Both the position numbers and the translations under genes were made by a program. The notes under the pieces are model-generated. The model made no database searches and was not told where the DNA came from. It was given only the letters and a program-made list of their open reading frames with translations. A DNA stretch of 45,154 bases from Bdellovibrionales bacterium (GTDB lineage Bacteria; Bdellovibrionota_C; UBA2361; SZUA-149; JAGRAN01), in assembly GCA_020434585.1 (NCBI GenBank), contig JAGRAN010000037.1:1-45154 (forward strand). Direction: 5' to 3'. Numbering within the stretch: position 1 is the stretch's first letter; each line of letters starts with the position of its first letter. Positions 40,060-42,269 of the stretch are shown in pieces.

Positions 40060-40085
40060 AAAACCGGGCAGATTTCTCTGCCCGG
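40058..40085 (-). terminator. Intrinsic terminator of the leftward SPFH operon
   Basis: CCGGGCAGA (40064-40072) pairs perfectly with TCTGCCCGG (40077-40085) around TTTC. On the reverse strand it is followed by six T residues, so it ends the leftward transcript from nfeD/SPFH. On the forward strand there is no T-run, although it lies right after the yjbQ stop. Confidence 0.85.
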
Positions 40086-40130
40086 CGTGTTGCCCGACCG
40101 CGTTGCATTCAGGAGCTGCCGTGCCCGGCT

Positions 40131-41054
40131 TTACTCCTGCTCTTTTTTTCCGTCTTGAAACAATCCGCCGATTCCTCCAATACTCCCAAGAATTCCACTC
40201 GTTTCAAGCGGGAGAAAAATCTTTGTTGACTGTCCGTTTGCTATGTCTTTAAGGCTCTCCAAGTACTTAATTGCTATTAAGTCGTTCGTCGGATTGCCTT
40301 CATGAATCGCCCGGTAAACCGTCTCAATCGCCTGAGCTTCACCGACAGCAACAGTCAGTTTCTGGAACTTCTCGGCTTCAGCTACTTTAATAATAGCCTC
40401 CGCTTCACCTTCTGCCTTGCGAATTGCCGCCTCTTTGGCACCCTCAGCCACCAAAATTGCAGCACGCTTCTCACCCTCAGCTTCAAGAATCGTCGCTCTT
40501 CGGTCGCGTTCGGCCTTCATCTGCCGGTGCATAGCTTCTGCCACGTCCACCGGCGGCTCAATTCGCTGAATTTCCACACGGGTGACCTTTGTGCCCCATT
40601 TGTCGGTAGCCGAATCAAGCACTTCGCGCAGCTGAGTATTGATTTTGTCACGCGACACCAAGGATTCATCAAGCGACATATCACCGATCAGGTTTCTCAG
40701 GTTGGTTTGCGCAAGTTTCGTAACAGCCATCCAGAAGTTATCGACGTTGTATTTATAGTTGAAGGGGTCGACAACTTGAAGGTAGATAACTGCGTCTACT
40801 GTTACTACGACGTTATCTTTGGTGATTACCTCTTGCGGAGGAACATCAGCAACTGTCTCTCGGATATCAACTTTGGACATTGTCTCGAAGAATGGGATAA
40901 TCAAATTTAGCCCACTTTCCAGTGTCCTGCTGTAGCGGCCGAGCCGCTCAACCACGCCTTTTTCCCAAGGTCGAATTATTCTGATCCCCATCAGCGCATA
41001 TACAAAAAGTACGCCGATGGTAATTCCAAAAAACATTAGTGTTGTGCTGTCCAT
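40131..41054 (-). CDS. SPFH/stomatin-like membrane protease-associated protein (QmcA/paraslipin type)
   Basis: A 307-residue SPFH protein with an N-terminal membrane span (about 5-25), then GIRIIRPWEKGVVERLGRYS, ITKDNVVVTVDAVIYLQV, LRNLIGDMSLDESLVSRDKIN, WGTKVTRVEIQRIEPP and a long Ala/Glu coiled coil with ILEAEGEKRAAILVAEG repeats. Such proteins build membrane microdomains and regulate FtsH-type proteases. GGAGG lies 6 bases before the ATG. It forms an operon with nfeD, the usual partner of SPFH proteins, and a possible tiny membrane gene between them. Confidence 0.92.
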   Translation of the reverse strand: MDSTTLMFFGITIGVLFVYALMGIRIIRPWEKGVVERLGRYSRTLESGLNLIIPFFETMSKVDIRETVADVPPQEVITKDNVVVTVDAVIYLQVVDPFNYKYNVDNFWMAVTKLAQTNLRNLIGDMSLDESLVSRDKINTQLREVLDSATDKWGTKVTRVEIQRIEPPVDVAEAMHRQMKAERDRRATILEAEGEKRAAILVAEGAKEAAIRKAEGEAEAIIKVAEAEKFQKLTVAVGEAQAIETVYRAIHEGNPTNDLIAIKYLESLKDIANGQSTKIFLPLETSGILGSIGGIGGLFQDGKKEQE

Positions 41055-41095
41055 TTCATCCTCCGGTAAAACCAGTCAAATAAACTCAAAGCTTG

Positions 41096-41158
41096 CTAAA
41101 GGTAGTTGAAAAAAGCTGCCAATAGAGCGCCCATGCCGATGAGAAGCATTGTACTCAC
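41096..41158 (-). CDS. Possible 20-residue single-span membrane peptide between nfeD and the SPFH gene
   Basis: From GTG 41158 a 20-residue frame reads VSTMLLIGMGALLAAFFNYL and stops at 41096. Residues 4-20 form one hydrophobic span. The GTG overlaps the nfeD stop (GTGA), with GGAGGG 4-9 bases upstream inside nfeD, which is an ideal arrangement for coupled translation. ATG 41149 is an alternative start. It lies in the same direction as both neighbours. The overlap and ribosome site argue for a real gene; its short length keeps the call modest. Confidence 0.5.
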   Translation of the reverse strand: MSTMLLIGMGALLAAFFNYL

Positions 41159-41595
41159 TGCACCCTCCTAACAATTAAATGCGTTCCCGATACACCTGTG
41201 ATTAAAACTGATTCTCCGCTTTCTATCTTAGAGCCGTCCTCTGAAAGTGCGCGCCAGTCTTCCCGCATAACCTGCACCAAACCAGCTCTGTCATCTGAAT
41301 AGATATCCTCACTGACAAGAGCGCGCATTCCGATCACTCGATCGACTCCCGCTTTACGTTCGGGTTCCTTGCAATACGCCGCGGCCAGCTTTCTAGAGAA
41401 GAAAACAAACACTGCGCTTACCGTTAGGAACATCGCCCACTGGACGAGCACTCCTGCGGAGAACCAAGCAGCTGCGGCCGCAGCTGCAGCGCCTACTCCA
41501 AAGCAGAAGATAAAAAATGTAGCAGTGAAAATTTCGCCAACAACAAGGATTGCCGAAACCATTAGCCAAAGCAGCCACGCTGGAATTGTGCTCAT
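41155..41595 (-). CDS. NfeD-like membrane protein (NfeD1b type)
   Basis: A 146-residue NfeD-family protein: two or three membrane spans in the first about 75 residues (WLLWLMVSAILVVGEI, FFIFCFGVGAAAAAAAAWF, AMFLTVSAVFVFF), followed by an OB-fold domain with VIGMRALVSEDI, AGLVQVMREDWRALSED and GESVLITGVSGTHLIVRRV. NfeD proteins work with SPFH proteins in membrane quality control. GGAGAAGG precedes the ATG. A candidate promoter lies at 41631-41659. It is first in the operon. Confidence 0.9.
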   Translation of the reverse strand: MSTIPAWLLWLMVSAILVVGEIFTATFFIFCFGVGAAAAAAAAWFSAGVLVQWAMFLTVSAVFVFFSRKLAAAYCKEPERKAGVDRVIGMRALVSEDIYSDDRAGLVQVMREDWRALSEDGSKIESGESVLITGVSGTHLIVRRVQ

Positions 41596-41630: not shown

Positions 41631-41659
41631 ATTATACACATCTATGTGTATTTCCGCAA
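41631..41659 (-). promoter_or_regulatory. Candidate sigma70 promoter of the nfeD-SPFH operon
   Basis: On the reverse strand TTGCGG (41659-41654) and TATAAT (41636-41631) are 17 bases apart; a second TATAAT-like box lies at 41624-41619. The first would give a leader of roughly 30 bases. A palindromic TACACATAGATGTGTA covers 41634-41649 between the boxes and could be an operator. Confidence 0.5.
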
Positions 41660-41768: not shown

Positions 41769-42269
41769 ATGCTTGGCGTAAACTGGACAGAATATTTTCA
41801 TCCAACTTGGGCAATTCAGCTCGAGCATCCGCTGCAGTGGGGAGTAAGCAGCCAAGCCGCCGACGGCAGCGAATTTCTTTTGCTCGCCGCCCCTCAAGAC
41901 GACAATGGATGTCAGCCGCATATTGTAATTCGGCGTATCGTGCAAACCTCGGATGCTATTTTAAACTTAGACTGCTACATCGACGATTTAGTTCCTAGCT
42001 TGATGGGAAGCGAAGTCGGCTTCAGCTTTCTTGAGCGCGGAGAGTTCACTCACCGCAATGGCAATCGGTGTGTTTATCTGGAGTACGGCAGCGAGCCTGA
42101 AGGAGTCTGTCTGAAAACTAGAACCTGTTTTGTAACACTAAACAGCTCAAGTACGTTTGTGTTTTCCTGCTCCGCTTCGTCCCCTGCGTGGAATCGCTAT
42201 ACTGATCTATTCAATCATATCGTATTATCGAGCAGTGATAAGTCAGATCTTAATTTACTAAGCTTTTAA
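41769..42269 (+). CDS. Hypothetical protein upstream of a Ycf46-like ATPase
   Basis: A 166-residue protein without signal peptide. It opens with WTEYFHPTWAIQLEHPLQW, followed by FLLLAAPQDDN, IVIRRIVQTS, the loop VYLEYGSEPEGVCLKTRTCFV and TFVFSCSASSPAWNRY with a final helix. The course from a PsbP/DcrB-like opening (W-x-I-x-x-P-x-x-W) to the S-x-S-x-x-x-x-x-x-x-Y ending recalls PsbP-like proteins, but this is only a resemblance. It ends 7 bases before the AAA ATPase gene, so the two are probably cotranscribed. Confidence 0.55.
   Translation: MLGVNWTEYFHPTWAIQLEHPLQWGVSSQAADGSEFLLLAAPQDDNGCQPHIVIRRIVQTSDAILNLDCYIDDLVPSLMGSEVGFSFLERGEFTHRNGNRCVYLEYGSEPEGVCLKTRTCFVTLNSSSTFVFSCSASSPAWNRYTDLFNHIVLSSSDKSDLNLLSF

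Follow-up and report, generated by a model that had tools for sequence, protein, structure and literature searches.

Proteins of the NfeD and SPFH types act as partners, and the small membrane proteins KdpF and CydX have their genes in the operons of the partners they serve. An operon class named NfeD1a–SPFH1a is described in passages of PMC2636767, and the E. coli ybbJ–qmcA type, in which nfeD is followed by an SPFH1-like gene, belongs to it. According to parts of PMC11222466, operons of the nfeD–SPFH type are near-universal and NfeD interacts with FloA, while a section of PMC12624060 cites a cryo-EM structure of the QmcA–YbbJ complex (Tan 2024). Among very short hydrophobic proteins attached to larger complexes, excerpts of PMC7267776 describe AcrZ (49 aa), which sits on AcrB, and KdpF, which raises KdpFABC activity.

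The window, by which we mean the whole 45,154-nt stretch of contig JAGRAN010000037.1 from a Bdellovibrionales bacterium, contains an operon resembling the ybbJ–qmcA type, and differs from it in a third gene, of 20 codons, lying between the two usual ones (Table 1). The minus-strand order is nfeD, the tiny frame and the SPFH gene. PF01957 and PF01145 match adjacent same-strand genes, and the NfeD protein lacks a ClpP-like protease domain (no protease family at Pfam E ≤ 1 across its 146 aa), as in NfeD1a–SPFH1a operons. Among solved structures, the SPFH protein is closest to E. coli QmcA (8z5g). The terminator-like hairpin downstream of the SPFH gene likely marks the end of the operon. On the other side of nfeD, a divergent 166-aa ORF precedes an AAA ATPase gene, and the inverted repeat in the divergent region is possibly an operator common to this ORF and the nfeD side.

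Table 1 Features of the nfeD–SPFH operon and its surroundings in the window.
Feature	Position	Strand	Evidence or remark
nfeD, short type, 146 aa	41155..41595	(-)	PF01957 C-terminal domain, E 5.3e-11
Shine-Dalgarno GGAGGG of the tiny gene	41163..41168	(-)	sequence; within last nfeD codons; also in congener
Tiny membrane microprotein gene, 20 codons	41158..41096	(-)	GTG start, TAG stop, peptide MSTMLLIGMGALLAAFFNYL (GTG read as M)
Shine-Dalgarno GGAGG of the SPFH gene itself	41060..41064	(-)	sequence; kept in congener
SPFH/Band 7 stomatin-like protein, 307 aa	40131..41054	(-)	PF01145 Band_7, E 3.1e-42
Terminator-like hairpin 3' of the SPFH gene	40063..40086	(-)	10 pairs, then T run
20-residue frame antisense to the SPFH gene	40243..40305	(+)	intact in congener
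Inverted repeat ATACACAT-N2-ATGTGTAT, divergent region upstream of nfeD	41634..41651		kept in congener, one arm mismatch
166-aa ORF, divergent from nfeD, just upstream of AAA ATPase gene	41769..42266	(+)	no Pfam match at E ≤ 0.01

The start of the tiny frame and the nfeD stop codon TGA (41157–41155) have the bases GTGA in common, giving a 4-base overlap, and a gap of 4 nt separates the GGAGGG from the GTG. An in-frame TAG four codons 5' of the GTG closes the frame, which is thus not an extension of a longer ORF. The encoded peptide of 20 aa is uncharged and hydrophobic (GRAVY 1.66). All of this agrees with the sequence-only reading, which had described a 20-residue membrane-type frame starting at a GTG that overlaps the nfeD stop by four bases, preceded by GGAGGG; its placing of the frame between NfeD and SPFH genes is likewise borne out by the two Pfam matches. 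With fewer than 50 residues and one hydrophobic span, the peptide has the size expected of small membrane subunits, and like AcrZ, KdpF and CydX it is very short and hydrophobic. It differs from these three in being shorter, in being found in one genus, in having a partner that is inferred, and in showing no similarity to a curated family: a Pfam search gave nothing above the cut-off (best match PEP-CTERM, E 0.086, 13.4 bits against a cut-off of 20.7), and there was no match in NCBIfam. Homology to a named small-protein family, a usual mark of small operon-encoded membrane subunits, is thus missing.

NfeD was searched in 57 genomes including the source genome (G000). One other of these is of the same genus (G001, hereafter the congener), and it carries the locus on contig JAUIIP010000315.1 (L005, identical to L027). 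Both are draft assemblies, the source genome comprising 304 contigs and the congener record being titled a MAG. NfeD is 75% and the SPFH protein 93% identical between the two, and synteny beyond nfeD is kept, with a divergent ORF of 166/168 aa followed by the AAA ATPase gene. Between nfeD and the SPFH gene, the congener has an intact frame of identical length with an ATG start, encoding MSTMILVGMGALLVTFFNYL; the 4-base overlap with nfeD (here ATGA), the GGAGGG and the closing upstream TAG are all present. The C-terminal FFNYL and the stop that follows are identical in both species, and the distance from the stop of the tiny gene to the SPFH start is 41–44 nt.

Codons 2–20 differ between the window and the congener at 17 bases, distributed as 4, 1 and 12 over codon positions 1, 2 and 3, an excess at the third position (12/17) with a hypergeometric P of 2e-4. 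Nine codons carry silent changes, and 4 of the 19 residues change (L5I, I7V, A14V and A15T), all conservatively. When 17 changes were placed at random 50,000 times at each of three transition biases, so few residue changes together with no stop arose with P values of 2e-5, 6e-5 and 8e-5, the mean expectation being near 10 against the 4 observed. By the Nei–Gojobori method, the tiny frame has a pN of 0.115 and a pS of 0.90 (dS saturated), compared with 0.159 and 0.705 for nfeD and 0.043 and 0.82 for the SPFH gene. Because these values lie near those of nfeD, the tiny frame is about as constrained as that gene, and a pN as low occurs in 37 of 127 nfeD windows of the same length. Identity is 45/63 over the frame with its stop and drops to 20 of 44 aligned columns in the spacer that follows, which holds one 3-column gap.

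As a control, ORFs of at least 18 aa placed in the stretch aligned with the congener contig were scored (n = 30), leaving 28, the tiny frame included, once nfeD and the SPFH gene were set aside. The SPFH gene, 93% identical from end to end, was itself scored as lost, and the sole cause is apparently a stop codon away from the aligned position. Start, frame and stop were kept in two of the 28, namely the tiny gene and a frame of 20 residues on the strand opposite the highly conserved SPFH gene. The latter is probably carried along by SPFH conservation, and no known gene lies opposite the tiny gene that could carry it in the same way. The retention of the frame in the congener, the synonymous bias of its changes and the drop in identity in the spacer together argue that this is a selected coding gene. 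We therefore conclude, from comparison of one species pair, that the tiny frame is a real coding gene, with its frame, start signal and amino acid sequence under purifying selection in the genus. The sequence-only reading had proposed looking in related genomes for the same short frame with synonymous-biased change, and had named a frame broken in close relatives as evidence against it; in the one congener, the frame is intact and the bias is present.

Among 15 genomes of the order, the tiny peptide was found in the source genome and the congener only, and a search of 45 genomes of the phylum returned the same two as confident matches. One further match (G030) was taken as chance, with an E value of 0.27 and a position inside a 94-residue open frame. 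Since diverged copies can escape a short query, the junctions themselves were surveyed: from 106 loci, 5 duplicates and 12 for which tblastn gave no neighbouring nfeD/SPFH pair on one strand were dropped, leaving 89, the window and the congener included. A hydrophobic frame, defined as at least 15 residues with a 15-residue mean hydropathy above 1.6, was present in three of these (the window, the congener and L092) and absent from 86 of the 87 other than the window and the congener. Many of the surveyed nfeD and SPFH genes overlap or nearly overlap. In the SPFH relative that comes nearest outside the genus (L006, 77% identity), no space is left between nfeD and the SPFH start, and in an order mate outside the count, in which NfeD was unmatched (L009), about 30 nt separate stop from start, with no hydrophobic frame by eye.

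The third junction, on an Acidobacteria contig, contains a 31-aa hydrophobic ORF (positions 240–335 of L092) that lies between nfeD and the SPFH gene and overlaps each by 4 bases. Among nine genomes covered for its order, it matched its own genome only, and in L110 and L111, two order mates whose SPFH genes are close, nfeD runs straight into the SPFH gene. It is unrelated to the tiny peptide and was rejected as a parallel case; as an unconserved singleton, it is not used as support.

Judged from these searches, the tiny gene looks restricted to the genus, and the pattern suggests either that it was gained there or that it evolves quickly. Origin by duplication of a membrane helix of NfeD or the SPFH protein was considered and set aside, as no alignment P value remains significant once the number of tests is taken into account: when the tiny gene was aligned locally with the 5' ends of nfeD and the SPFH gene, the protein P values were 0.025 and 0.17 in the window and 0.096 and 0.138 in the congener, and the DNA P values were 0.122 and 0.305, and 0.033 and 0.37, respectively. 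Turning to the operon as a whole, its nearest NfeD and SPFH relatives outside the genus lie on contigs labelled as, for example, Calditrichaeota, KSB1, Acidobacteriota and Dadabacteria, and a match to NfeD was obtained in some order mates but not in others. Horizontal transfer of the operon is hinted at by these two observations. Searches with the SPFH protein found no relatives among viral contigs and two matches among plasmids, both below 50% identity; junction DNA had no match among plasmids.

We consider it most probable, at roughly 0.55, that the tiny peptide inserts in the membrane as an accessory partner to the NfeD/QmcA-like complex, a role suggested by its position in the operon. The frame would be translated with nfeD through the 4-base overlap, with the SPFH gene next in one operon, and its product would be a 20-residue single-pass (or membrane-embedded) microprotein inserting in the cytoplasmic membrane. 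There it may pack on the membrane helices of NfeD, on the N-terminal helix of the QmcA-like SPFH protein, or on both, and this packing would adjust the assembly or stability of the NfeD–SPFH ring complex, as KdpF, CydX and AcrZ do for larger complexes. A single-sequence fold of NfeD was too poor for use (mean pLDDT 67, pTM 0.30). Only tentatively do we describe the peptide as a genus-specific 20-residue transmembrane subunit added to the QmcA–YbbJ-type NfeD–SPFH ring complex. The sequence-only reading had thought of a small regulatory subunit. Of that idea, the coupled membrane-peptide gene stands, and a role with its neighbours is plausible from position only; a general subunit of the complex it cannot be, since the gene is missing from nearly all other nfeD–SPFH operons surveyed.

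That same absence suggests that the complex does not need the peptide, and could be taken to mean that a real membrane microprotein acts elsewhere, with the operon providing the timing of expression and the target being another membrane partner or the lipid bilayer itself. Coding selection is established, whereas binding to the neighbours is inferred, and this too fits such a product; we nevertheless regard it as unlikely, given that the tiny gene sits between two partner genes and keeps its coupling to nfeD in both species. More doubtful still is a cis-acting leader or coupling peptide, whose translation, perhaps with stalling at the C-terminal FFNYL, would control the SPFH gene while the finished peptide had no role. 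Like a regulatory leader peptide, the tiny gene is a very short frame that precedes a structural gene, and both the identity of FFNYL and its stop across the two species and the nearness of that stop to the SPFH start would suit this explanation. It lies, however, inside the operon rather than at its head, overlaps nfeD and is hydrophobic throughout, whereas a frame serving only for coupling need not stay hydrophobic from end to end; moreover, the SPFH gene comes with a conserved GGAGG of its own. Nor was the RNA fold or terminator that a leader or attenuator would place between the peptide and the gene it controls found here: in neither species does the region fold better than shuffled sequences do (z 1.31 and 0.21), no terminator-like site was found between the tiny gene and the SPFH gene, and the window has no Rfam match.

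Conservation by drift or nucleotide constraints, leaving a chance frame, would be in keeping with a comparison of one species pair and with the commonness of 20-residue frames in the window, one of which, antisense to SPFH, was kept as well. It is nonetheless very improbable in view of the rarity of so few residue changes under random placement, the concentration of changes at third positions and the unremarkable RNA fold, and the one other non-gene frame kept among the 28 lies antisense in a well-conserved gene. We give hardly any credence to a C-terminal membrane extension of NfeD made by ribosomal frameshifting: the two frames do overlap by 4 bases, but the shift would have to fall within a few codons, after the in-frame TAG and before the GTG. 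Inspection by eye showed no slippery run, and both species have a proper Shine-Dalgarno sequence and start codon.

Returning to the membrane partner that we favour, the tiny gene encodes a new, narrowly distributed predicted membrane protein of the small operon-encoded kind, for which a subunit role is our hypothesis. To our knowledge, no dedicated small subunit of an NfeD–SPFH complex has been described earlier, and a subunit of 20 residues would rank among the smallest dedicated membrane subunits that we know of. The portions of the open-access literature on NfeD with small membrane proteins or leader peptides that were covered contained no such gene. NfeD–SPFH pairs are widespread, and their bacterial role is, according to passages of PMC11222466, still unclear. 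The present case indicates that a single related genome can suffice to validate 20-codon genes overlooked by gene finders, and a dedicated microprotein, if that is what this gene encodes, would offer a way to approach the membrane portion of the NfeD–SPFH complex.
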